Shown here in pieces: positions 57 through 14,870 of a stretch of DNA of 64,000 bases (position 1 is its first letter; every line of letters begins with the position of its first letter). Source of the DNA: Natrinema sp. SYSU A 869 (GTDB lineage: Archaea; Halobacteriota; Halobacteria; Halobacteriales; Natrialbaceae); contig NZ_CP082248.1 of the NCBI RefSeq assembly GCF_019879105.1, forward strand, positions 310,001-374,000. Direction: 5' to 3'. Under the pieces are notes generated by a model, which was not told where the DNA came from, did not search any database, and was given only the letters and a program-made list of their open reading frames with translations. The translations under genes and the position numbers were made by a program.

Positions 57-1067
57 ATGAACTACTATGTAAAGCGCGTAATCCGATCGTTCGTGACTCT
101 AGTGCTGGTCATCACGATCACGTTCGGTCTGACGCGTCTGATGCCCGGCGGCCCCGTCGATTACATGCGAGCGAAGCTTCGCAAGCAAAATCCGAACATG
201 CCGTCCGAGCAGATCGACCAGATGGTGCAGGCGTACGTCGGCGTCAAGCCAGACGAACCGATCTACGTGCAGTACCTGAACTACGTCACTAGCGTCCTTC
301 AGGGCGACCTCGGCGAATCGACGTACTACAACGAGCCGGTCGTCCAGATCTACGCGGAGGCGATTCCATGGACGCTGTTCGTTCTCGGAACAGCGATGCT
401 TGTGACGTTCGCGATTTCGATCTCGCTCGGCGCGCTTCTCGCTTACAAGGAGGGAAGTCGGCTTGACTCCGTCGTCAGCACCGTCGCGATCGTGATGAAC
501 TCCGTCCCCTATTACGTAGCGGCGATCATTCTCATTGCGATCTTCGTCACGAACCTGGGAATGTATCCGCTTTCCGGGAGAACGAGCCTCGGCGTCACAC
601 CGGGCTTCAACCTTCCGTTCATAGTAGACGTGCTACGACACGCGACCCTGCCGATGCTCTCGGTCATCATCACGGGCTTTGGCGTCCAGACGCTCGCGAT
701 GCGGAGCAACAGTATCAGAGTACTCGGGGAGGATTACATCCGTGTAGCACGGTTGCGGATGCTCCCCACGAGTCGCATCGCGAACCAGTACGTGGCTCGG
801 AACGCACTCCTCCCGATCTACACCGGCTTCGTCATCCAGATCGGGTTCATCTTCGGGGGTTCAATCATCCTCGAGGACATCTTCCAGTACCCGGGTGTCG
901 GGTACTACTTCTTCAACGCGATCACGGCGCGTGACTATCCGTTGATGATGGGCGGGTTCCTCATCATCTCGGTTGCAGTCGTCATCGCGGTCACGATTGC
1001 TGATCTCACCTACGGACTGATCGATCCGCGTGCGGGTGCCGGGGGTGATTCCAGTGAAGCCTACTGA
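57..1067 (+). CDS. ABC transporter permease, DppB/OppB type
   Basis: Inner-membrane permease of an Opp/Dpp-family ABC importer. The 336-residue protein begins with a membrane helix (about residues 9-30) followed by the usual family pattern around GLTRLMPGGPVD. It has further hydrophobic segments at about 100-130, 135-170, 190-215, 255-280 and 300-325, and the EAA-like loop near RVARLRMLPTSRI that docks the ATPase. A GGAGG ribosome site (42-46) lies ten bases before the ATG. The gene overlaps the second permease, so the two are probably translated together. The solute-binding protein is not in the window and may lie just upstream. Family substrates include peptides and oligosaccharides; the GH32 neighbours favour fructo-oligosaccharides, which is inference. 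Confidence 0.92.
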   Translation: MNYYVKRVIRSFVTLVLVITITFGLTRLMPGGPVDYMRAKLRKQNPNMPSEQIDQMVQAYVGVKPDEPIYVQYLNYVTSVLQGDLGESTYYNEPVVQIYAEAIPWTLFVLGTAMLVTFAISISLGALLAYKEGSRLDSVVSTVAIVMNSVPYYVAAIILIAIFVTNLGMYPLSGRTSLGVTPGFNLPFIVDVLRHATLPMLSVIITGFGVQTLAMRSNSIRVLGEDYIRVARLRMLPTSRIANQYVARNALLPIYTGFVIQIGFIFGGSIILEDIFQYPGVGYYFFNAITARDYPLMMGGFLIISVAVVIAVTIADLTYGLIDPRAGAGGDSSEAY

Positions 1068-2055
1068 CGAGGACAGGAATCCGATGGCCGACGGCGGCGA
1101 TATCAACGCGGCAGAGATCCCGCTTGAGAGCGTCTCCGTCGAGGACGTCACCCGACGCGACCGGATCGCCAAGGACCTTCGCGAGCACTGGGAAACGTTC
1201 CTGCTGGCGTGGTCCGACTGGCGGTTCAAGGCCGGATTCCTGATCCTGCTCGGATTCGTCTTTGCCGGAACGGTCGGCGTCTGGCTCGTCGAACCACCGA
1301 CGTATCAGGACGGAAATAAGTGGGACAGACCGTCCTACTTCGGCGAGAACCCGCTTGGCACTGATCAGTTCGGACAGGACATCGCCGCGCTGTTGATTCA
1401 CGCGACGCCGGACATGCTGTTAATGCTGATGGGCGGGGCGGTGTTCGCTACCGGGATCGGCGCGTTCGTCGGTATCGTCTCGGGCTACAAGGGCGGTCGG
1501 GCCGACGAAATACTGATGACGCTGACTGACACGGCGATGATGATTCCCGGGCTCCCGCTGATCATCATCGTCGGCGCGATCTGGGAGCCAACTAGCCCGA
1601 TCCTCGTCGGTATCCTCGTGTCGATCAACGCGTGGGCCGGGACGGCGCGGTCGCTCAGATCCCAGGTCCTCACGATCCGGGAAGAGGCGTACGTCGAGGC
1701 CTCGCGGATCATGGGCGTCTCGACCGGATCGATCCTGCGCAAGGACATCACGCCGCAGCTCCTCCCGCTCATCCTCGTCAATTTCGTGATGTCGGGGCGG
1801 GGAGTGATCTTCAACTCCGTGGCGCTGTACTTCCTCGGGGTGCTTCCGGTCGAAGGTGTCAACTGGGGCGTGATGCTGGAGAAGGCGTACAACGCTGGCG
1901 CGGTCACGTCGCCACAGTTGTACTACACGGTTCTGTGGCCACTCCTGACGATCGTGCTCCTATCGTGGGGACTCATCATGCTTTCTCAGGGGCTCGACCG
2001 TGTCGTCAATGTCAGGGTTCGCGACCGCCACGAAGGCGAGGGGACCAAACAATGA
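1054..2055 (+). CDS. ABC transporter permease, DppC/OppC type
   Basis: Second permease of the importer. I chose the GTG at 1054 because a near-perfect ribosome site (GGGGGTGAT, 1041-1049) precedes it by four bases; a GTG at 1030 is also in frame. Charged N-terminal region of about 50 residues, a membrane helix (LILLGFVFAGTVGVWLV), then the family motif FGENPLGTDQFGQDIAALL. The EAA loop reads YVEASRIMGVSTGSILRKDI. The last helix is near the C-terminus (LLTIVLLSWGLIMLSQGLDR). The start lies inside the end of the first permease gene. The double-ATPase gene follows 58 bases downstream, so a single transcript is likely. Confidence 0.92.
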   Translation: MKPTDEDRNPMADGGDINAAEIPLESVSVEDVTRRDRIAKDLREHWETFLLAWSDWRFKAGFLILLGFVFAGTVGVWLVEPPTYQDGNKWDRPSYFGENPLGTDQFGQDIAALLIHATPDMLLMLMGGAVFATGIGAFVGIVSGYKGGRADEILMTLTDTAMMIPGLPLIIIVGAIWEPTSPILVGILVSINAWAGTARSLRSQVLTIREEAYVEASRIMGVSTGSILRKDITPQLLPLILVNFVMSGRGVIFNSVALYFLGVLPVEGVNWGVMLEKAYNAGAVTSPQLYYTVLWPLLTIVLLSWGLIMLSQGLDRVVNVRVRDRHEGEGTKQ

Positions 2056-2113: not shown

Positions 2114-4402
2114 ATGAGTTCCGACTACGAAACACACGAACGCGAAGTAGTACAACAAACGAACGCAGCGTCGGCCGACCGAGACGTGATTCTAGAGGTT
2201 CGAAACGCCTCGGTCGAGTTCGATATGGGCCGCGGGACGTCGCGGGTCCTCGACGACGTCTCGATGGATATCCGCCAGAGCGAAATCCTCGGCGTCGTCG
2301 GCGAGTCTGGCTCTGGGAAGTCGATGTTCGCCTCAGCGCTCCTCGACGCGGTCGTCGAGCCGGGCCAACTCTCCGGGGAAGTGATCTATCACCCCCAGGA
2401 CGGCGACCCGGTCGACATCGCGAATGCCGATCGTGACCTGCTGAAGCGGTACCGCTGGAAGGAGATTTCGATGGTGTTCCAGGGCGCGATGAGTTCGTTC
2501 AATCCGACCCAGCGGATCCGCGATCACTTCACGGAGACGCTGAAGGCGCACGACCACAACCTCAAGTCGGGGATGGACCACACGCGCCGGCTGCTGCGAG
2601 AACTCCACCTTGATCCCGATCGGGTGCTCGACGCGTACCCCCACGAATTGAGCGGCGGAATGCAGCAGCGAGCACTCATCGCGCTCTCGCTAGTGTTGAA
2701 ACCGCGAGTGCTAGTGATGGACGAGCCGACCGCGGCGCTCGACCTGCTGATGCAGCGATCGATCCTCGGCCTTCTGGAGAACCTCCAGGAGCGGTACGAT
2801 CTCACCGTCGTGTTCATCACCCACGACCTCCCGCTGGTGGCTGGCCTGGCGGACCGGATCGGCGTTCTGTACGCCTTCCAGATGGCGGAGGTCGGTCCGA
2901 CCAACGAAATCCTCCGCGATCCCGCTCACCCATACACAAGGGACCTGCTCAACGCCGTTCCGAACCTCGAAACGCCACTGAACTCGATGACGCCGATCGA
3001 GGGACGGGCACCCGATCCGGTCGACACGGCGACCGGCTGCCGGTACGCGTCTAGGTGTCCGCTGGCAACCGACGAGTGTCGGTCCGAAGACCCGCCGTTC
3101 TTCGACGTCGGTGCTGACCACGAGACTGCCTGTCATCACTGGGAGCGAGCGCGCGAGGAGATCCCGTTCAATCCGACCGAAAGCTCCGAACAGGTCGAAA
3201 CAGACGCCGTGACAGGTCGCCAATCAGACGATCCGGTACTCTCGCTCGACGACGTGGACGTCCACTTTGAACGGAACTCGGGGCTTCGGTCGAAACTCAC
3301 TGGCGACAGCGAGACTGTCTACGCCGTCAACGACGTTACCCTCGATATCTACGAGAACGACGTGGTCGCGCTCGTCGGCGAATCGGGCTGTGGCAAGACG
3401 ACGCTCGGGAAGACCGCTATCGGTGTCCAGCGACCGACCAACGGGAGGGTTTCGCATCGGGGAGTCGACGTCTGGAACGCCCGCGACGGCGGCGACGACG
3501 CCTACGACGAGATCCGCTCGGCGCTACAGATCATCCACCAGGACCCGGGGAGTTCGCTGAATCCCAACCGAAGCGTTCAGGAGATCCTCGAGACCCCGCT
3601 CAAGCAGGCTCAGGACAACCTCAGCTTCAAGGATCGACGAGAACGGATCATCGCGATGCTAGAGTACGTCGGCCTCTCCCCGGCTCGTGATTACGCCGAC
3701 CGTTACCCACATCAGCTCTCCGGCGGCGAGAAACAGCGCGTTGCGCTCGTGCGCGCACTGTTCATGAATCCGGACCTCATCCTAGCTGACGAAGCGGTGA
3801 GCGCGCTGGACGTATCGCTCCGCGTCGAGATGATGGATCTGATGCTCGAACTGCAACAGCGGTTCGATACGTCGTATCTGTTCATCTCGCACAACTTCGA
3901 GAACGCGCGGTATCTCGCTGGAAAGGTTGACGGCCGGATCGGCGTGATGTACCTCGGAAACGTCGTCGAGATCGGTCCCGCCGAGGAGATTATCCGGAAC
4001 CCGCGTCATCCCTACACGAAGATCCTTCGCTGGTCGACGGCGGACATCGACCCCGACGACAGCAGCGGGGAACTACCGGTGCGGAGCATCGACATCCCGG
4101 ATCCCGTCGACCCCCCGAGCGGCTGCCCGTTCCAGACGCGGTGCCCGAAAGCCCGCGAGCACTGTACCGAGGAGTGTCCGTCACTTGATCCGTCGAACGG
4201 GGGTTCGGATGATCACGCGATCGCCTGCTTCCGCGAGTGCGATAGTGACCATCCCTACTGGGACAGCGAACCGCTCGACGGTGCTGATGGCGACGAGTCC
4301 ATCTTCGGACCCGACCGTCCGCCCGAAGAACGTGCGGCTCCGGACGGCGGTGAGCGGACCTCGGACGATCACTCCGGGGACGTACGGAGGAAGGACCGAT
4401 GA
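2114..4402 (+). CDS. Fused double ATP-binding protein, DppD-DppF type
   Basis: 762-residue ATPase carrying both ABC domains of an Opp/Dpp importer in one chain. First domain (about residues 28-270): Walker A GESGSGKS, signature LSGGMQQRA, Walker B VLVMDEPTAALD. Second domain (about 375-630): Walker A GESGCGKT, signature LSGGEKQRV, Walker B LILADEAVSALD. Each half ends with the oligopeptide/dipeptide C-terminal extension with paired cysteines (GCRYASRCPLATDEC and GCPFQTRCPKAREHC), which in some relatives carries an iron-sulfur site. The C-terminal 60 residues are acidic and low in complexity. Bacterial systems usually encode DppD and DppF separately; fusions are known in archaea. It energises the two permeases upstream. 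Confidence 0.93.
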   Translation: MSSDYETHEREVVQQTNAASADRDVILEVRNASVEFDMGRGTSRVLDDVSMDIRQSEILGVVGESGSGKSMFASALLDAVVEPGQLSGEVIYHPQDGDPVDIANADRDLLKRYRWKEISMVFQGAMSSFNPTQRIRDHFTETLKAHDHNLKSGMDHTRRLLRELHLDPDRVLDAYPHELSGGMQQRALIALSLVLKPRVLVMDEPTAALDLLMQRSILGLLENLQERYDLTVVFITHDLPLVAGLADRIGVLYAFQMAEVGPTNEILRDPAHPYTRDLLNAVPNLETPLNSMTPIEGRAPDPVDTATGCRYASRCPLATDECRSEDPPFFDVGADHETACHHWERAREEIPFNPTESSEQVETDAVTGRQSDDPVLSLDDVDVHFERNSGLRSKLTGDSETVYAVNDVTLDIYENDVVALVGESGCGKTTLGKTAIGVQRPTNGRVSHRGVDVWNARDGGDDAYDEIRSALQIIHQDPGSSLNPNRSVQEILETPLKQAQDNLSFKDRRERIIAMLEYVGLSPARDYADRYPHQLSGGEKQRVALVRALFMNPDLILADEAVSALDVSLRVEMMDLMLELQQRFDTSYLFISHNFENARYLAGKVDGRIGVMYLGNVVEIGPAEEIIRNPRHPYTKILRWSTADIDPDDSSGELPVRSIDIPDPVDPPSGCPFQTRCPKAREHCTEECPSLDPSNGGSDDHAIACFRECDSDHPYWDSEPLDGADGDESIFGPDRPPEERAAPDGGERTSDDHSGDVRRKDR

Positions 4403-4738: not shown

Positions 4739-6967
4739 TCAGGCTGGGCCCTGCTCCTCGTAGGTATCGAGAAATGTCCGAATATCGGACAGAGACGGCG
4801 TCGCCTGGTACTGCTTGAAGTAACTCGCCACTGTGCTTCCGAGAGTGAGTGTCGATGTGTTCGAGAGACCCTCGGCGCGTCCCAGGGCGATACCTGCGCT
4901 GAAGTGATCCTCAAACGTCCCTTCCTCTGCCGGGTCGGAAATCAGGGCCGATCGGATCCGTTGGCTCCCGTCAGGGCCGGCGAGGACGGACTCTTTCGTA
5001 GAGGTCACCGCGACCCGCGACACGCCGATCTCGCGGCAAAGCGACTCTGCCGTTGCATGGAGCGCTCGCTTCCCGCGGTCGCCGGACGGAAGGGCGTCAC
5101 TCAAGTGCGCGGCCTGTCCGCTGGTTGTCACAACCGTCACCGGGATCGCGTCGTCGAGGATGCTCAACGACTCCAGATCCGACCGAAGCGTCGTCTCCGT
5201 TAGGCGATGCACGTCGCTCGTACAGACGATGATGTCGTCGGGCGGCGACGAGAGCAGCGGATGCACCTGCTCGTAGATTCCCTCCCAAATCGTCGAGATC
5301 TCGGGGATGAGCGCCCAGCCGCCGATGCTCACGAGATCAGTCTCGTCGAGTCGATCGGCGATTTCTTCGAGCGGCACGTATTCTCTGAGCGTTTCCCAGT
5401 TCAACGCTTGATGTCCACCGGAGTCGGTGAACAGGACCTTCCCATCGTCGAACTGTAGATACTCCGTCACGGTCGGCTGTCCCAGGCTGAGAAGCGCGTC
5501 GTCGTCGAACGCGTCGCTGAACTCGTCCCGGATCGGCTGCCCGAAGAACCCAACGAGTTCCGTATCGTATCCGGCTGTGTCGAGTACCTGTCCGACGTGG
5601 GCAGTGTGGCCGCCGGGCAACCGCCTGCTCTCGACCCACTCGAACTGGAGCGTCTTGTCCTGAGCCGACGCCCTCGTGATCATCTCGCGCAGCGTGTCGA
5701 ACTCGTCGATCTCGTCGTACATCCGAGGACTCTTCCGTTCCCCGACCAGCGATCTGATATAGTCGATGTAACCGTCGAAGCCGACGATGACGTCGCCGGC
5801 GATCCCTTCGGGGAGCTCCGTCCGGCACGTCTCGATGTGTGCGAGCGTCTCGTCGTCGAGTTCTTCAGCGGACCAGTCTTCGTGTTTCTCCAGTTCGATG
5901 CTCGTCGCCATGTAGTCTTCCTGCCGCGAGTGCCAGCCGCCGACCGTCACCGTCGGAGACTGCTCATCGTCGCCCTCAACGATGTCAACTTCGAGGTACG
6001 CCTGATCATCGAACTCCGGCGCGTAGTACCCGGTGAGTCGTCCCTCTCGAGAAATCTGCTGGCCGGACACGTTGTCGTAACCCTCGAACCGGACCGTCAG
6101 GGTTCGGAGGGGAACGGAGTCGGTGAGTAACTCAAGGTCGGTGAGGCAATCGCGGATCCGATAGTACCGTTGCGGAAGTGTGGTGGAGCGGCGCTGATCA
6201 GGATTGACCGGATAGCCAAGTGGCCAGACTGTATCCGAGAGGAACCGGTCGAACAGAAATGCGAGTTCCTCATCGGTAACGTAGAATCCCTCCTGAGAGT
6301 GGCGACGTGCGTTGGTGGTACTCGGCCAGAAGAACCCAGCATTTCGATCTACACTGAGTACAAGCGGTTCGCTACGGACGGTCCCCCGAACGTAGTCGGC
6401 GAACTCGCGGATGGGGCTGTTGAGTTCGATACGGTCGTCGACAACATGACCCTCGTCGAGACCAGTGAGGACGACGCGGATCTGGATGTCGGAGTTGTCG
6501 CGCAGCGCATCCTCGAAGATCCGCAGTCGGTCGACGGACGTCATCAGGAAGATCGTCCGTTCGGCGCTGTCGAGGAGTTCGGAGATGTACTTCTCGATCG
6601 TCGACCGGTTCCGGAACTGTGCGACGCCGCTGTCGACGTCGGACACCGACTTGTGAAACTCCTCGAGCGCGTTTTGGACCTGTTCGACGTGTGTTTGGAT
6701 CGGGCCAAGCGTCTTCGTGGGATCGATTGCGTATGCCTTCTTGGGATAGCTGTCGTCAAGTTCGACGAAGCCCTGTTCCCTGAGTTCCTCGACGATGTCG
6801 TATACACGCTGTTTTGGGACGTCGCTCGCCTCGGATAGGTCTCGCATCGATTGCTTTCCGTTTTGAACGAGCGCGAGATATACCTGCGACTCGTACTCCG
6901 ACATATCGACGTGGCGTTGCAGCGAATCGCGTATTTCGGATTCGTCGAGGTCCTCGTAACCACTCAT
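4739..6967 (-). CDS. TrmB-type sugar regulator fused to a PfkB/ribokinase-fold domain
   Basis: 742 residues with three parts. Residues about 18-90 are a TrmB winged helix (SEYESQVYLALVQNGKQSMR... VPKQRVYDIVEELREQGFV). Residues about 115-375 resemble the TrmB C-terminal sugar-sensing region. Residues about 390-735 read as a PfkB/ribokinase fold: an opening strand VIVGFDGYID, a substrate-loop GG motif in LPGGHTAHVGQVLDTAG, VGFFGQP, and a late FEDHFSAGIALG that aligns with the GAGDxFxxG motif. The aspartate and the FxAG part survive but the GAG anion hole does not, so catalysis is doubtful and a sensor role is possible. TrmB proteins are usually about 340-370 residues, so this is double length. 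It is divergent from the GH32 gene and convergent with the transporter operon, the obvious regulatory targets. Confidence 0.82.
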   Translation of the reverse strand: MSGYEDLDESEIRDSLQRHVDMSEYESQVYLALVQNGKQSMRDLSEASDVPKQRVYDIVEELREQGFVELDDSYPKKAYAIDPTKTLGPIQTHVEQVQNALEEFHKSVSDVDSGVAQFRNRSTIEKYISELLDSAERTIFLMTSVDRLRIFEDALRDNSDIQIRVVLTGLDEGHVVDDRIELNSPIREFADYVRGTVRSEPLVLSVDRNAGFFWPSTTNARRHSQEGFYVTDEELAFLFDRFLSDTVWPLGYPVNPDQRRSTTLPQRYYRIRDCLTDLELLTDSVPLRTLTVRFEGYDNVSGQQISREGRLTGYYAPEFDDQAYLEVDIVEGDDEQSPTVTVGGWHSRQEDYMATSIELEKHEDWSAEELDDETLAHIETCRTELPEGIAGDVIVGFDGYIDYIRSLVGERKSPRMYDEIDEFDTLREMITRASAQDKTLQFEWVESRRLPGGHTAHVGQVLDTAGYDTELVGFFGQPIRDEFSDAFDDDALLSLGQPTVTEYLQFDDGKVLFTDSGGHQALNWETLREYVPLEEIADRLDETDLVSIGGWALIPEISTIWEGIYEQVHPLLSSPPDDIIVCTSDVHRLTETTLRSDLESLSILDDAIPVTVVTTSGQAAHLSDALPSGDRGKRALHATAESLCREIGVSRVAVTSTKESVLAGPDGSQRIRSALISDPAEEGTFEDHFSAGIALGRAEGLSNTSTLTLGSTVASYFKQYQATPSLSDIRTFLDTYEEQGPA

Positions 6968-6979
6968 ACTCTTGTCGAA

Positions 6980-7002
6980 GAACTAGAGGAGTATAGTAGT
7001 TC
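6980..7002. promoter_or_regulatory. Inverted repeat GAACTA-N11-TAGTTC upstream of the TrmB-type regulator
   Basis: Perfect six-base arms separated by 11 bases, 13 to 35 bases before the regulator start codon and within its presumed promoter (a TATA-like ACTATACT lies inside on the minus strand). TrmB proteins bind inverted repeats near promoters, so this is a candidate autoregulatory operator. No second copy was noticed before the GH32 gene. Confidence 0.4.
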
Positions 7003-7089
7003 GTGAGCGTCAGCACCGACGTTGGGACCGTCCACGCGCGCTGCTGTCGCCGCTGCGAGTTCACCGTCGACGGTCCGACAGACAGGTGG

Positions 7090-7099
7090 TATTTTTATG
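7090..7099 (+). promoter_or_regulatory. TATA-like box of the LamG-GH32 gene
   Basis: TATTTTTATG ends 23 bases before the ATG at 7122. This is the usual distance for a nearly leaderless haloarchaeal transcript. Confidence 0.5.
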
Positions 7100-7121
7100 A
7101 TTACGGGGTATCCCATCCGAT

Positions 7122-9386
7122 ATGGCCGACCGAGACGATAGCGACAAATACCGTGCCGTAGCGTACTGGCCGTTCGACGAAGGCGAGGGCTCGTCCGCTG
7201 AAGAAGTCGTGTCCGGATACCGTGACGAGGTCAAGCACGCGTTCGCGGACGCACGGTTCAAATCGGATAGTGATCCGCGGTGGATCGATGGCGTCACAGG
7301 AAGCGGACTGTTGTTCGATGGCTACTCCACGCGGATCGAACACGACCGGCGGATTCTCGACGGCGATACGACCGGTCTCACGGTCGAAGCGTGGGTTGCC
7401 CCCCGCGCGTTCGAGGGTCAGTCGTCAGAGCGTCTCTCCCCGATTATCAGCAACCACTCGGTCGACGATAACCGCGGGTTTGAGTTTGGACTCGACGGAC
7501 ACGGCCGGTGCTCGTTCCAGGTCGGACTGGGAGACGCGTGGGAGGCCGTCCAGACGGAGTCACCGCTTCCCAAATACTCCTGGTCGCATGTCGCAGCGGT
7601 CTTCGAGGGCGACAGCGGCGCACTCCGACTCTACGTCGACGCCGCATGCACCGCAGTGGAACGAGTTCCCGAAGGGAGTGCGATCGCCCCGGCCGACGTC
7701 CCGGTTCGAATCGGAAAGAACAACCGAACCGAACGTGTCGACGACACGTTCGCTTTACACAACTTGGCGGGGGCAATCGACGAACTCGGAATCTACGAGC
7801 GTGCGTTCGCCGCCCCCGACGTCCGCGAGCGGTACGAGTCGCCGTGCGACGACGAGCACCCCTCGATGGACTACGAAACGATTGCACTCGATTCGTCGCG
7901 GTATCGCGAGGATCGTCACCGTCCGCAGTACCACCCGATCCCGCCCGGTCACTGGATGAACGAACCGCACGCACCGCTGTATCACGACGGCCAGTATCAC
8001 CTGTTCTACCAGCACAACCCCAGCGGCCCGTACTGGGGTAACATCCACTGGGGGCACTGGGTGAGTGACGATTTAGTACATTGGCGGCACCTTGAACCGG
8101 CGCTAGCGCCCGAACACGACGGACTGGCTCCCGACGGGATCTGGTCCGGCGGATCGACTCGCGACACCGACGGGGACCCCGTTCTCCTCTTTACCGCGGG
8201 AGAGATGGACCGCACTCCCGATCAGCGCGTCGTGGCAGCGTCTCCCGTCGATCCCGACGACCCCGAATTGACGTCCTGGCGTCAGGCCGGCGAGTCCGCG
8301 ATCGAGCGCCCGCATTCGATCGGACTGCGAGATAACGACTTTCGCGACCCGTTCGTCTGGCGGGAGAACGGGACGTGGTACTGTCTCGTCGGGTCCGGCT
8401 TCGCTGATGGTGGCGGCGCGGCCCTCGTATACGAGTCTGAGGGCCTGGCGGAGTGGGAGTTTCGGGGATGTCTCCACCGGGCGAATCACGACGAGTACCC
8501 GGAACTCGGGCTCGTCTGGGAGTTGCCCGTCTTGCTGCCGGTCGGCGAAGACGAGACCGACGCCGAGAAGCACGCGTTCATCGTCAGTCCGATCGAGGGT
8601 GCTGCGGAAGTGGAAGTGTACTACTGGCTCGGCGAGTGGGACCCCGACGCCTGTCGGTTCATTCCGGACCACGAGGGCCCGCGACGTATCGATTACGGGG
8701 ACTTTCACTTCACCGGCCCCCACGGTATGGTCGACCCCGAAACAGGTCGGAGCCTCCTATTCACGATCGCACAGGACGACCGTCGTCCGCGGGATCACTA
8801 CGACGCCGGATGGGCCCATAACGGCGGCCTCCCGGTTCACCTGTTTCTTCGCGACGACGGTCGGCTCGGTATTGAACCGATTGAGGAACTGCGCTCCCTC
8901 CGAGTCGAGCAACTCGCCGAGATCCGGAACGCGCAGGTCCCGGACGCGAACGACGAACTGGATGGCGTTGGCGGAACCGCAGCCGAGATTCGAGCAACGA
9001 TGACGTCCGACGGCGCTGAGAAGTACGGGCTGAAGGTCAGGGCAAACCCCGATGGGTCCGAGGGGACACTGATATACTACGACGAACGGACGGAGCGGAT
9101 CGTCGTCCACCGCGAACGCAGCACGCGAAACGCCGAAACACGGGCGACTGTTTCGGAGCGAAGCTCGCTCGTCCACCGCGGCGAGGTCGACCACGACGGC
9201 GAGGACCTCGAACTGCGAGCGTATCTCGACGGGTCGATGCTTGAGGTGTATGTGAACAGTCTGAAGAGCGTCACTACTCGCCTGTATCCGGAGGATGAGC
9301 GGTCGACCGGAATCAAGGCGTGGGCGGACGGTGATGTAACCGTCCAGCGCTTGGACGTTTGGGAACTGGATAGCGCATACGAGTGA
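7122..9386 (+). CDS. LamG domain plus GH32-like fructan hydrolase, intracellular
   Basis: 754 residues. About 8-240 is a LamG/concanavalin-like domain (AYWPFDEGEGSS, LTVEAWVAPR, WSHVAAVF, LRLYVDAA). About 260-580 is a GH32 five-blade propeller and about 600-750 the GH32 C-terminal sandwich. GH32 landmarks: HWMNEPHAPLY where the family consensus is WMNDPNG, then YHLFYQHNP, FRDPFVW (RDP, Asp409) and VWELPVLLP (acid/base Glu467). The catalytic nucleophile position is thus Glu281 rather than Asp. No signal peptide is visible, so it probably acts in the cytoplasm on imported oligosaccharides. It stands first in a same-strand group with a decayed fructokinase and a secreted paralogue. Substrate (inulin, levan or short fructans) cannot be read from sequence. 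Confidence 0.85.
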   Translation: MADRDDSDKYRAVAYWPFDEGEGSSAEEVVSGYRDEVKHAFADARFKSDSDPRWIDGVTGSGLLFDGYSTRIEHDRRILDGDTTGLTVEAWVAPRAFEGQSSERLSPIISNHSVDDNRGFEFGLDGHGRCSFQVGLGDAWEAVQTESPLPKYSWSHVAAVFEGDSGALRLYVDAACTAVERVPEGSAIAPADVPVRIGKNNRTERVDDTFALHNLAGAIDELGIYERAFAAPDVRERYESPCDDEHPSMDYETIALDSSRYREDRHRPQYHPIPPGHWMNEPHAPLYHDGQYHLFYQHNPSGPYWGNIHWGHWVSDDLVHWRHLEPALAPEHDGLAPDGIWSGGSTRDTDGDPVLLFTAGEMDRTPDQRVVAASPVDPDDPELTSWRQAGESAIERPHSIGLRDNDFRDPFVWRENGTWYCLVGSGFADGGGAALVYESEGLAEWEFRGCLHRANHDEYPELGLVWELPVLLPVGEDETDAEKHAFIVSPIEGAAEVEVYYWLGEWDPDACRFIPDHEGPRRIDYGDFHFTGPHGMVDPETGRSLLFTIAQDDRRPRDHYDAGWAHNGGLPVHLFLRDDGRLGIEPIEELRSLRVEQLAEIRNAQVPDANDELDGVGGTAAEIRATMTSDGAEKYGLKVRANPDGSEGTLIYYDERTERIVVHRERSTRNAETRATVSERSSLVHRGEVDHDGEDLELRAYLDGSMLEVYVNSLKSVTTRLYPEDERSTGIKAWADGDVTVQRLDVWELDSAYE

Positions 9387-9471
9387 ACAACCGAGTCTTC
9401 GCGACATCACGGCTAGCAGGACTCTTATCTCGATTCCGGATGTACACGTTTCCGTGCAAGTTCATCATCAG

Positions 9472-9705
9472 ATGTATGAGCTGTACGACAGCATCGACAC
9501 CGAGACGCTCAGGGCGCGTCAGGACCTCGTCAACGTGTTCCCGCCGCTCGATTCGCAGGTTTCCCTACAGCAGTGGGAGTCCGTTCAAGACGACCTCGTC
9601 CAGCAGAAGACCCCAATCCAGCGGAATTTCCCGAATGGGGACGCCTACGCAGAGATCGTTGCACATGCGACGGAAACCCAGGCGTTCACCGGACTCGATC
9701 TATAG
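9472..9705 (+). CDS. Small hypothetical protein
   Basis: 77 residues from the ATG at 9472 (MYELYDSIDTETLRARQDLV). Mainly polar and helical, no membrane segment, no motif I recognise. It sits between the GH32 gene and the broken fructokinase. It may be a short complete protein or the N-terminal piece of a lost gene. Confidence 0.4.
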   Translation: MYELYDSIDTETLRARQDLVNVFPPLDSQVSLQQWESVQDDLVQQKTPIQRNFPNGDAYAEIVAHATETQAFTGLDL

Positions 9706-9783
9706 AACGGAACGGACCGCGTCAACGGCATCTCGGTCAGGTCGCTGATCACACTGGTCAATCTAACCGTGGAGGAATGACCG

Positions 9784-10437
9784 ATGGATGACCAGAACAT
9801 CCTCGTGATCGGCGAAGCGCTCGTCGATATGCTACCCGCGGAACCGGGGGAGATCCGCAGCGTGGAGTCGTTCCGGCGTCGTGCTCGCGGCCGAGTTGGC
9901 TCGGTCAGCCGTGCTCGATCTACTACGGCGCGCACGAGAGGCGAACTGTTCCGTGTACTTCGATCCGAACTGGCGTCCGGAACTGTGGGATGACGATGAT
10001 ACGGTCGTCCTCGAAGACGCGATCAAGATGGCCGACGTGCTCAAGGCGACGCCCGATGAACTGAAACAACTCGGATACAGACAGAAGTTGCTCGATCGAC
10101 GGTGCGAAGTAGTCTGCCGGGACGGACCACACACTGTCTTTCTCACGCGCGGCGATAAGGGTGCCATGGCGTACGCGACAGCCGACGCGCCGTGGGGCGA
10201 CGGCGTCGTCGAACACGAAGAGTCAATGTCGACGTGGTCGACACGACAGGAGCAGGCGACGCGTTCGTCTCCGCAACGGTCGCCGCGCTTGCACGAAGGA
10301 CTAGCGATCTGGACCGAACCGTCAGATTTGCGAACGCGTCTGCTGTGATCTCGGCGACCACGACGGGAGCGATGGAACGACTACCGGACTGGAAGATGAT
10401 CTCCGAATTCGTAGACTCTCACACTGTGCACAAATAG
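9784..10437 (+). pseudogene. Decayed PfkB-family sugar kinase (probable fructokinase)
   Basis: An intact PfkB N-terminus (MDDQNILVIGEALVDMLPAE) runs for about 33 codons. The sequence then jumps to what should be residue 125 or so (SGVVLAAELARSAVLDLL, then VYFDPNWRPELW), so roughly 90 codons, including the substrate GG motif, are missing. After TVFLTRGDKGAMAY the frame shifts again near 10220. The C-terminal catalytic motif VDTTGAGDAF continues in another frame to 10437. Length is about 215 codons against about 320 for the family. The function would have been fructose or 2-keto-3-deoxy sugar phosphorylation. Unlike other broken genes here, the large deletion argues for true decay. Confidence 0.8.
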
Positions 10438-10587
10438 AATAACACTGATTTGTCCCTCAGTTGCTAATTCTCGGTACAGCGGTCACGACGGATCGCCAGT
10501 CACACCGGTGACGGCTGCACGATTCCAGCGGCCGTCGGTTGTCGGACGTTGTCTCGAGTACGAAGTTACGGACACTCGATTAGTTTT

Positions 10588-13500
10588 ATGTTAATGGTGA
10601 TGGACGCTCGAAGTGTGACAGAGAACAACAAGCAGTCCGATAGTACCGACAGGTGGTCGTGCCCGGCGTTGCAGTCCGATAGTACCGACAGCATCGGCCA
10701 CGTCGCTCGACGCGATTGGTTGCAGATCATCGGTAGAATCGCCGCTTCGGCTAGCGTTGGCGGCGCGCTCACCGGGTCCGTAACGGCGTCGCACGCCGGA
10801 TCCAAGGTCGGTGACTGGCCTCTTGACGAGGGAAGTGGTGATTCCACCGTCGAAAGTGTCGCAGGACACCAAAAGCACGTCGCCTATAAGGGCGACCGAG
10901 ATCCGCTGTGGATTGACGGGAAAGACTGGCACGGCCTGCTGTTCGACGGCTACACCACGTGGGCGGCCTGGGAACCCGACGAACTCGCGCCGGAGTTCGG
11001 TCGGGAACTCTCGGAGCTAACGATCGACACCTGGGTCGCTCCGCGTTCTCACGGCTCCGAGTCGAACTACATCGACCCGATCGTCGAGAAGCGCGACCGG
11101 AGCGTCCAGCAGGGGTTCACATTCGGCGTCGACAACTACGGCCACTGGACGTTCCAGGTGGGTCTCGGCGACAGTTGGGAGGAGATATGGGTCGAGAGCG
11201 GCGACCTGATCGACGTCTACGAGTGGAACCACCTTACAGCCGTCTTCGACGGAAACGCGGGGTCGTTGCGCCTCTACAAGAACGGGACCCTCGTCGCCGA
11301 GAGCTCGATTCCAACTGGGACGATCGACCCCGCCGACGTCGCCCTCAAGCTCGGGAGGAACTCCCGGATGGACTACGTCGGAGAGGGGAGCGACGTCTGG
11401 AAGCAGAACATGCTCAACGGTGCCATCAGCCGGCTGGAAACCTACGACATTGCGCTCTCCGGATCCGAGATCCAGAACAAGCACGACAACGAAGTCGGCG
11501 ACCTCCCCGCGACCGGCTACCAGGAGTTGACGGTTAATCCACGGCAGTACGACGGCGACAACCTCCGACCGGAGTACCACGCGATCGCGCCGACACATTG
11601 GATGAACGAACCCCACGGTCCGCTGTACTTCGACGGAAAGTACCACCTGTTCTACCAGCACAACCCGAAGGGATCCTACTGGCGGCAGATCCACTGGGGC
11701 CACTGGGTCAGCGACGACATGGTCCACTGGAACCCCGTCGAGGAGGCGCTCCGACCGGAGGAAGGAATCGATCCGGCGGGTTGCTGGTCGGGCGACACCG
11801 CCGTCGACACCGACGGCTATCCGAAGCTCCTCTACACTGCGGGCCTCACGGAAGGAACGGACGACCAAGCCATCGCCGAGGCGACGTCGACGTTCCCTAA
11901 GGACGACGACGTAGCGCTCACCGACTGGAACAAACAGGGGTCGTGATACGTCAGCCCGACGATCCCGACCTGATGGAAAACGAGTTTCGCGACCCCCACG
12001 TCTGGCAGGAGAACGGTGAGTGGTACTGTCTCGTCGGCTCGGGTCTCCAGAACGGCGCCGGGGGTACTGTGCTTGCGTTTCACTCCACGGATTGTGTCAA
12101 CTGGAACTACGAGGGACGGGCGCTCCAGCTGGACAGTCCCGACGACTACCCGCACCTCGGCGATAACTGGGAACTGCCGGTTTTGCTGCCGATCGGCACG
12201 GACGGCGACGGCAACGAGAAGCACACCCTCTGCATCAGTCCCCAGGGCGGCGACACGGAGGTGTGGTACTGGGTCGGAACTTGGGACACCGCTACCTTCG
12301 AGTTCGTCCGCGATCACCAAGACCCGCTGCTCATCGATGAGGGCGACTTCCACTTCACCGGGCCCAGTGGCTTCGTCGATCCGCAGACGGGCCGCTCGAT
12401 CCTGTTCACGATTGCGCAGGATCACCGCGAGGAACAGCTCTGGCACGACTCCGGGTGGGCGCACAACGCCGGGACGCCGATGGAGCTGTCACTGCGCGAT
12501 GATGGCCGCCTCGGCGTCGCCCCGATTCAGGAGATGGAGCGCATCCGCTCGGAGAAGCTCCTGGAGATGAACGACGCCGGTCCGGCGCTTGTCAACGACG
12601 CACTGGAGAACCTCACCGCTGACACCGTCGAACTGCAGCTGGAGATCGAGTCGAACGGCGCGACGGAGTACGGGTTCTACTCGCACTACTCGCCCGGCGG
12701 CGAGGAGAAGACGCTCGTCCACTACGACGAATCGACCGGCGAGATCAAGACCGATCGGAACCAGACCAGTCAGGACCCGACGCTAATGGAAGCGGAGCAG
12801 GACAAGAGCAGCCTCACGACGCAGGGGCCGGTCGACATCGGCAGCGACAACCTGCGCCTGCGGGTGTTCGTCGACAAGTCGCTGATCGAGTGTTACGTCA
12901 ACTCGCTCAAGAGCGTTACCACGCGCGCGTACCCCTCGCGCGACGACTCGACGGAGCTACGTCTGTACCGCGACGGCGACATCACGGTCCGATCGATCGA
13001 GATCTGGGAGATGGAGGACATCCAGAACGGACGGCCCAGTTCGGAACAGTACCGACCCGGGTTCCACTTCGAACGCGAGACCGGCTGGATGAACGATCCG
13101 AACGGCCTGGTGTATCACGACGGCACGTATCACCTGTTCTACCAAGCCAGCGAGTCCCGTCGACGGTGGGATCACGCCACTAGCATGGATCTGGTCAACT
13201 GGACCGAGCAGGGAACCAAGATTTCGAACACGGACAGCATTCAGGCCTACTCCGGCGGCGCGGTGGTCGACGCGAACGACACGGCCGGGTTCGGCGAGAA
13301 CGCGATCGTGGCCATGTACACGGGGCACCACGACGGCGGAGAAGAGGACCAGCGCCTCGCTTACAGCACCGACGGCGGCGACACGTTCACCAAGTACAGC
13401 GGAAATCCGGTACTCGACGAGGACGCGATGAACTGGCGCGACCCGAACCCGTTCTGGTACGAGCCGACTGGCAACTGGCGGATGGTCGTTGCGCGCGTCG

Positions 13501-14870
13501 AAGGGAACGGCTCCGACCGGCCGGCGGGGATCGAGATCTACGAGTCCGACGACCTGAAGAACTGGACGTACCTGAGCACCTACGAGTCCGGCGGCGTCGC
13601 CTGGGAGTGTCCCGACCTGTTCGAACTCCCGATCAGTAACACCGACGAAAGCCGGTGGGTGATGACTGTCTCCGTCGACGCCGACCACGTCGAACACCAC
13701 ATCGGCTACTTCGACGGCACGACGTTCGCCGCCGAGAACGAGGTGTACGCGGACTCCGGGTGGGACTTCTACGCCGCCCAGAGCTGGGCCAACGAACCGG
13801 CGACGGACTCTCGTCTGGGACTGGCGTGGACGAGCCACTGGGATTACGCGTCCGATACGCCGGAGGACGGCTGGAAAGGCGCCCAGTCGTTCCCCCGGCG
13901 GATCACTCTCCGGGACACCGGGAGCGAGATCGTGCCAATCCAGCGCCCCGACGGGGCAGTCGAGTCGAACCGCAAAGGCGTGCTCGAGGAGCTGAGCGAC
14001 GAACCCCTTTCGCCTACCCACGACCCGTTGGCGGGCACCAACGTGAAAGGTGAGATGGTTGAGCTGCTCGCGACGATCGATCCGGGCACTGCTGACACTG
14101 TGGCCTTCGAGCTTCGCGAGGGCACCAGTCAGAAGACGCGCGTCACCTACGACGTCGGCGCGGAGGAACTGTTCGTCGATCGAGGCGACGCAGGCGCCTT
14201 CTTCGGCGACACCGACAAGGACGTCGCGAGTCAACCGGTGGCGTTGCGCGATGACGGGACTCTCAGGGTGCGCGTGTTCGTCGACCGGAGTATCATCTCC
14301 ACGTTCGCCAACGACGGCAAGAAGACGATGACGAATCGGATCTATCCGGACGAGACAAGCGTCCACGCGACGATGACCGCAACCGGCGGTACGGCGACCG
14401 TCGAAAGCCTCACCGCTTGGGACTACTCCGAAGGACTTGTCGACGGCGCGACCTACCGCATCGAGAACCGCAACAGCGGGAAAGTCCTCGAGGTGCGGGA
14501 CGGGGGGACCGGGGACGGCAACGCTGTCCAGCAGTGGGAGTGGTGGGGCGGCGACAATCAGAAATGGATCGCTCACGAAGTCAATGACGGCGTCTTCCGG
14601 TTCGAAAGCCACAACAGCGGGAAAGTCCTCGAGGTACGGGACGGAGGCACTGGAGACGGCGACGACATCCAGCAGTGGGAGTGGTGGAACGGCGATAACC
14701 AGCGGTGGACCGTCGACAGAACTCCTGACGGCCACTACCGCATTCGGAACGCCAACAGCGGCAGAGTGCTAGACATTGAGGACGCTTCATCCAGCGACGG
14801 CGCCCGCTGCGTGCAGTGGGAGTGGTGGGACGGCGACAACCAGAAGTGGAACTTCGAGCGACTCGAGTGA
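10588..14870 (+). pseudogene. Tat-exported protein with LamG, two GH32 modules and a ricin-type lectin; frame broken at 11940
   Basis: Read through one lost base this is about 1,427 residues. The N-terminus has an RRDWLQIIG Tat motif and hydrophobic stretch ending near TASHAG. Then come a LamG domain, a GH32-like module with WMNEPHGPLY (Glu341 at the nucleophile position), a complete second GH32 module with canonical WMNDPNGLVY, NWRDPNPFW and AWECPDLFELP, and a C-terminal beta-trefoil with three QWEWW-type repeats. The first frame ends at 11946 inside GH32 module 1 and the second opens at 11943. Adding one G to the GGGG at 11937-11940 gives NKQGVVIRQPDD and restores the domain exactly. Alternatively, a GTGA overlap could split translation, but a mid-domain split is unlikely. 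The start is one of three ATGs at 10588-10600. It probably degrades fructan polymer outside the cell. Confidence 0.85.
10632..10691 (+). repeat. Two identical 21-base direct repeats, 39-base period, inside the exported GH32 gene
   Basis: The copies at 10632-10652 and 10671-10691 are identical and encode QSDSTD twice in the same frame, before the Tat motif. The 39-base period keeps the frame. Likely a slippage product in the N-terminal region of the precursor. Confidence 0.85.

Follow-up and report, generated by a model that had tools for sequence, protein, structure and literature searches.

The window analysed here (the whole 64,000-nt stretch) carries a long gene fusing a TrmB regulator to a sugar-kinase-like domain, flanked by transport genes on one side and by a divergent glycoside hydrolase gene on the other. 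The genes and the intergenic region concerned are as follows.

57..1067 (+): Opp-type ABC permease (PF00528)
1030..2055 (+): Opp-type ABC permease (PF00528)
2114..4402 (+): double ABC ATPase of OppD/OppF type (PF00005 twice, PF08352 twice)
4739..6967 (-): fusion gene, TrmB with a probable pseudoketohexokinase, 742 aa (single ORF; Pfam; 95%-identical orthologue)
6968..7121: divergent intergenic region between the fusion gene and the GH32 gene, holding a conserved 21-bp element at 6981-7001
7122..9386 (+): GH32 fructan/sucrose hydrolase with an N-terminal lectin-like domain (PF00251, PF08244, PF13385), divergent from the fusion gene

One reading frame with two halves

The fusion gene is an uninterrupted frame of 742 codons, and its orthologue in Haloterrigena turkmenica, HTUR_RS20080, is 95% identical. 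A search for the same fusion in haloarchaea was positive, with 35-95% identity, in at least 17 of the 391 genomes of the class, with 19 such genes in all, one truncated and another split. Among the named carriers are Haloterrigena turkmenica, Halomontanus rarus, Halomarina sp. BND7, Haloarcula halophila, Haloferax gibbonsii (two copies), Halogeometricum limi and Halogranum amylolyticum. With a single protein as query, the search for related loci found none; with an alignment as query it returned eight named fused loci. The intact copies in many other haloarchaeal genomes, across that range of identity, rule out a frame error joining two genes and put the fused architecture far beyond chance. 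Where fused proteins are annotated they carry one label, TrmB family regulator.

6719..6922 (-): TrmB winged helix-turn-helix, residues 16-83 (PF01978, E 2e-18; hmmsearch to P. furiosus TrmB 3qph)
5888..6616 (-): TrmB sugar-binding (effector) domain, residues 118-360 (PF11495, E 2e-23; Foldseek 2f5t, 3qph)
4760..5860 (-): ketohexokinase (Khk, ribokinase-fold) domain, residues 370-736 (PF25270, E 9.7e-99; fold Z)

The original prediction, a complete TrmB regulator joined to a PfkB-fold sugar-kinase-like domain, stands in its outline, since both Pfam and the predicted structure bear out a TrmB fused to a ribokinase fold. The N-terminal half is indeed complete, matching both PF01978 (66 bits against a cut-off of 25.6) and Regulator_TrmB PF11495 (83 bits against 22.2). 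For the C-terminal half the ribokinase fold holds, but the assignment to PfkB kinases in general does not: the Pfam search gave no match to PF00294, and the family is ketohexokinase, with a PF25270 match that covers positions 1-365 of the 365-position profile (331 bits against a cut-off of 35).

In AlphaFold2 models built from nine sequences (mean pLDDT 68, residues ~444-520 poor), the Khk domain alone gave Z scores of 20.2 against the ADP-dependent glucokinase 5o5x, 18.5 against 3in1, a ribokinase, and 16.7 against 3nbv, the human ketohexokinase with fructose. The objection that this half might not be a ribokinase fold fails because the predicted domain matches chains of the ribokinase superfamily at Z 16-20. 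With the full-length model, Foldseek found 3qph (P. furiosus TrmB, E 9e-20) and then ribokinase-family chains from E 9e-9. Matches of the Khk profile to PDB sequences were weak, with GD and NxxE aligned to the corresponding motifs of ribokinase-family enzymes.

In P. furiosus TrmB, Gly320 and Glu326 contact the sugar, within a residue set that includes Asn305 (PMC4158304). Profile alignment to 3qph places Gly344 and Glu350 of the window protein at the first two positions and Ala323 at that of Asn305. Other haloarchaeal TrmBs likewise keep the equivalents of Gly320 and Glu326, and Asn305 is not conserved there (PMC10817205).

Motifs and selection in the ketohexokinase half

We compared two sets, an active reference set of 23 (22 free-standing Khk and one fused protein, L097) and a set of 16 fused proteins of pseudo-type, to which the window protein belongs. 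All 23 active members keep TTS(A/S)GDHF and NxxE, which in profile alignments coincide with the catalytic motif and the NxxE of ribokinase-family enzymes.

4907..4921 (-): broken anion hole/catalytic motif GTFED, residues 683-687 (TS(A/S)GD in active Khk; motif comparison)
5114..5125 (-): broken NxxE motif TSGQ, residues 615-618 (motif comparison)
5597..5614 (-): retained sugar-side motif GGHTAH (Gly452 and Gly453 each in 16/16 pseudo-type proteins, His457 in 15/16)
5762..5776 (-): retained sugar-side motif DGYID (Asp398 in 15/16 pseudo-type proteins, Asp402 in 16/16)

The late motif of the window protein is EEGTFEDHFSAG, which reads EGTFED where active enzymes read TTS(A/S)GD; Asp687 is retained, and Glu686 stands in place of the Gly that precedes it. 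This confirms the earlier reading of a degenerate motif with the Asp kept and the anion hole lost, and the loss is general: the anion-hole Gly is gone (replaced by D, E or I) in all 16 pseudo-type proteins, whose catalytic position holds D in eight, E in five, A in two and N in one. Because Asp687 persists in the window protein, residual kinase activity is possible there. The second catalytic motif has fared no better, its N and E being present in 23/23 of the active set and its Glu lost in 16/16 of the pseudo-type, mostly to Q. Both the Asp and the Arg of DPxDxR are likewise lost in 16/16, as is the invariant Tyr at 550. The equivalents of E505, Y550 and R587, invariant in active Khk, are changed in the fused pseudo-type, so the ligand may differ from fructose.

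The sugar side is better preserved. The ribokinase-type substrate motif GGHTAHVG, named in the original prediction, is present at residues 452-459. The TrmB domain keeps its Gly320 and Glu326 equivalents and the Khk domain keeps part only of its sugar-side motif, a combination compatible with two sugar sites in one protein, as had been supposed.

Against an 85%-identical relative (dS 0.9), dN/dS is 0.08-0.09 for the Khk domain, similar to that of the TrmB sensor, and 0.06 for the TrmB region. Such low values (~0.09) indicate that the Khk domain is maintained, and rule out a decaying kinase. In a rough, saturated comparison with a 56%-identical relative, dN was 0.24 for the N-terminal half of the Khk domain, 0.47 for its C-terminal half and 0.42 for the TrmB sensor. 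Taken together, the lost motifs, the kept sugar-side part and dN/dS near 0.09 make a maintained pseudokinase sensor the most likely identity of the Khk half.

Fructan loci and candidate operators

The fructan context proposed earlier is supported: a GH32 gene lies within ~7 kb at 16 of 17 pseudo-type loci versus 2 of 22 free-standing Khk loci, the latter with slightly shorter flanks (Fisher p 6e-8, the loci not being independent), and is directly divergent from the fusion gene in 12 of the 17. The clade of the window protein has an Opp-type importer with its substrate-binding protein, a second GH32 gene and, just beyond the window, a GH68 gene; the other pseudo-type loci mostly have a CUT1 importer. 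The window importer had been taken for a sugar-type transporter, but it is of the Opp/Dpp (oligopeptide-type) family, which is not sugar-specific, so a role in sugar uptake rests on its context. A free-standing Khk is also present in several fusion-carrying genomes, and H. turkmenica has a PfkB kinase within its fructan cluster; these make it improbable that the fused protein is the cell's kinase.

The neighbouring fructokinase has decayed, as originally described; compared with the Haloterrigena turkmenica copy it is broken into three pieces, and residues 43-134 are missing. The window fructan cluster as a whole (~9454-14855) is decaying relative to H. turkmenica pHTUR01: only residues 1-89 of a HAD hydrolase survive, a gene of orotate-phosphoribosyltransferase-like (possibly GfcR-like) type has been lost, and a 1404-aa GH32 protein is split at ~11931-11997.

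The 21-bp element at 6981-7001 is common to three relatives, being near-identical in one whose intergenic region has mostly diverged, and occurs once in the window; it may simply contain the promoter of the fusion gene. A different element, the 16-bp TCACGATAGTTGTGAA, is invariant in six intergenic regions of the CUT1-associated clade that are 50-65% alike (one pair 85%) and whose next longest invariant run is 7 bp. None of 20,000 column shuffles, which ignore autocorrelation, reached an invariant run of 16 bp. The element is an imperfect inverted repeat (10 of 15 positions) and sits between a TATA-like CATAA/TATAA and the GH32 ATG (in-frame in most); a degenerate form occupies the same position in four more distant loci, and the window lacks the element. 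In archaea, regulators of TrmB type act as repressors when their sites lie downstream of TATA (PMC10817205), so a candidate operator between TATA and the GH32 start favours repression in the CUT1-associated clade.

A proposed sensor derived from an enzyme, and its relatives

We propose, with a probability of about 0.6, that the gene encodes a maintained TrmB-pseudoketohexokinase regulator of fructan loci, a local switch for the use of fructan and sucrose. Catalytic residues lost from a domain that selection maintains, next to fructan genes, suggest a dead enzyme turned into the built-in sugar sensor of a gene switch. A TrmB-type dimer would bind near the divergent GH32 promoter. The ketohexokinase-derived domain, with both catalytic motifs lost, very probably no longer transfers phosphate and could act as a second effector, binding fructose or a related ketose in its partly retained sugar cleft; the haloarchaeal Khk that has been characterised is specific for fructose and forms a dimer (PMC11519228). 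A different sugar may be sensed by the TrmB domain, and importer and hydrolase genes would then answer to hydrolysis products present inside the cell. In the CUT1-associated clade, relief of repression by ligand would be the likeliest sign.

A possible objection is that the Khk domain serves only for structure or dimerisation, with all sensing done by the TrmB domain. The homodimeric state of free haloarchaeal Khk (PMC11519228) and the loss of several Khk pocket residues would fit such a role, but the sugar-side GG, His and two Asp are almost invariant, the N-terminal half of the domain has a lower dN than the TrmB sensor in the 56%-identity pair, and linkage to GH32 fits fructose sensing; we regard a purely structural role as unlikely. 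More doubtful is a trigger enzyme, in which the domain phosphorylates fructose and the catalytic cycle feeds back on DNA binding. It could draw on the Asp687 kept in the window protein and on a second fused type (L097, G087) with intact TTSAGDHFNAG and NxxE, whose operon includes dehydrogenase and aldolase genes. The window clade, however, has two broken catalytic motifs, 8 of its 16 proteins carry A, N or E in place of the Asp, and many of these genomes have separate sugar kinases.

There is also little to be expected of a domain that senses fructose-1-phosphate, another phosphorylated ketose or a nucleotide instead of free sugar. Haloarchaeal fructose catabolism does pass through fructose-1-phosphate (PMC11519228), yet the losses include motifs on the phosphate and nucleotide sides, and conservation is lower in the C-terminal half of the Khk domain than in its N-terminal half; we consider this very improbable.

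Hexokinase-like and galactokinase-like folds provide known cases of a sugar kinase converted to a transcriptional sensor. The bacterial ROK repressors NagC and Mlc, and yeast Gal3, are sugar kinases turned regulators in which, as proposed here, a kinase-derived fold senses sugar in gene control; they belong to other superfamilies (hexokinase/actin-like, GHMP), whereas here it is the ribokinase fold that would take this path, placed after a regulator already equipped with a sugar domain. The plant fructokinase-like proteins FLN1 and FLN2 are PfkB-fold pseudokinases linked to transcription through the plastid RNA polymerase complex; unlike the fusion protein they are not known to carry an HTH fusion or to act as sugar-inducible regulators.

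Among archaeal regulators, P. furiosus TrmB, TrmBL1, T. kodakarensis Tgr and the TrmBs of Halobacterium and Haloarcula have the same order of HTH and Regulator_TrmB domains, to which the fusion protein adds a C-terminal Khk domain of 370 aa and an adjoining position to GH32 genes. The TrmBs of the fusion proteins form a subfamily of their own, clearly distant from the other TrmBs in the sample, and the fusion protein falls far below the NCBIfam equivalog cut-offs. The KHK of Haloferax volcanii and Haloarcula (PF25270) shares with the fusion the whole-length match and the ribokinase fold; the window-clade domain differs in being fused to a regulator and in having lost the anion hole, NxxE and DPxDxR.

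A 2024 TrmB survey filtered for identical domain architecture (PMC10817205) and so would have omitted TrmB-Khk fusions. Our literature search, which covered subscription papers thinly, found no paper with TrmB and ketohexokinase together, an absence that is suggestive only. The protein offers a concrete hypothesis for how haloarchaea control their use of fructan.

The pseudo-Khk domains cluster in a single clade (support 100/99). The second fused type, found in two genomes, joins a TrmB to a Khk of active kind (L097:7809-10028 (-) and L108:8491-10287 (-)), and these Khk domains group with active-type free-standing Khk. L097 carries all catalytic motifs and by sequence could be a true bifunctional regulator-kinase; L108 ends before the catalytic motif. 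The operon of the L097 type, a polyol-type one, has genes for permeases, an ATPase, an alcohol dehydrogenase and an aldolase, and is comparable to the fructose and polyol genes of Haloarcula hispanica (PMC11519228).

A single clade of all fused Khk domains was rejected by the AU test (p 4e-6, on a sequence set without row L221), and a single origin was also rejected, more weakly (p 0.006), when a Halomarina free Khk with a TrmB-like tail was counted as fused. The fused TrmB domains nevertheless all fall in one subfamily (99/97), together with one free TrmB (Haloarcula marina). TrmB may have been recruited twice, or a domain swap may have occurred. We give roughly equal chances for and against a hitherto undescribed family of archaeal regulators with two sugar-sensing modules, a TrmB effector and a Khk-derived pseudokinase, in which Khk domains were gained at least twice, as a dead sensor at fructan loci and as an active kind in polyol operons that could be a regulator-kinase. 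With active and dead fused versions in related genomes, the path from enzyme to sensor is directly testable.

The free TrmB of the same subfamily (Haloarcula marina; L220:9992-12103) is followed 40 bp later by a separate PfkB sugar kinase gene. The Halomarina free Khk (L219:9929-11212), in a polyol-type operon, has an N-terminal stretch that resembles the TrmB C-terminus (36 residues, 50% identity, E 0.009), and is therefore probably a fission product or remnant. On the Haloarcula halophila plasmid NZ_CP119561.1 (L217, L218) the fructan locus and a BREX locus each occur twice, and the fused gene and GH32 are broken in one of the two copies of the fructan locus.
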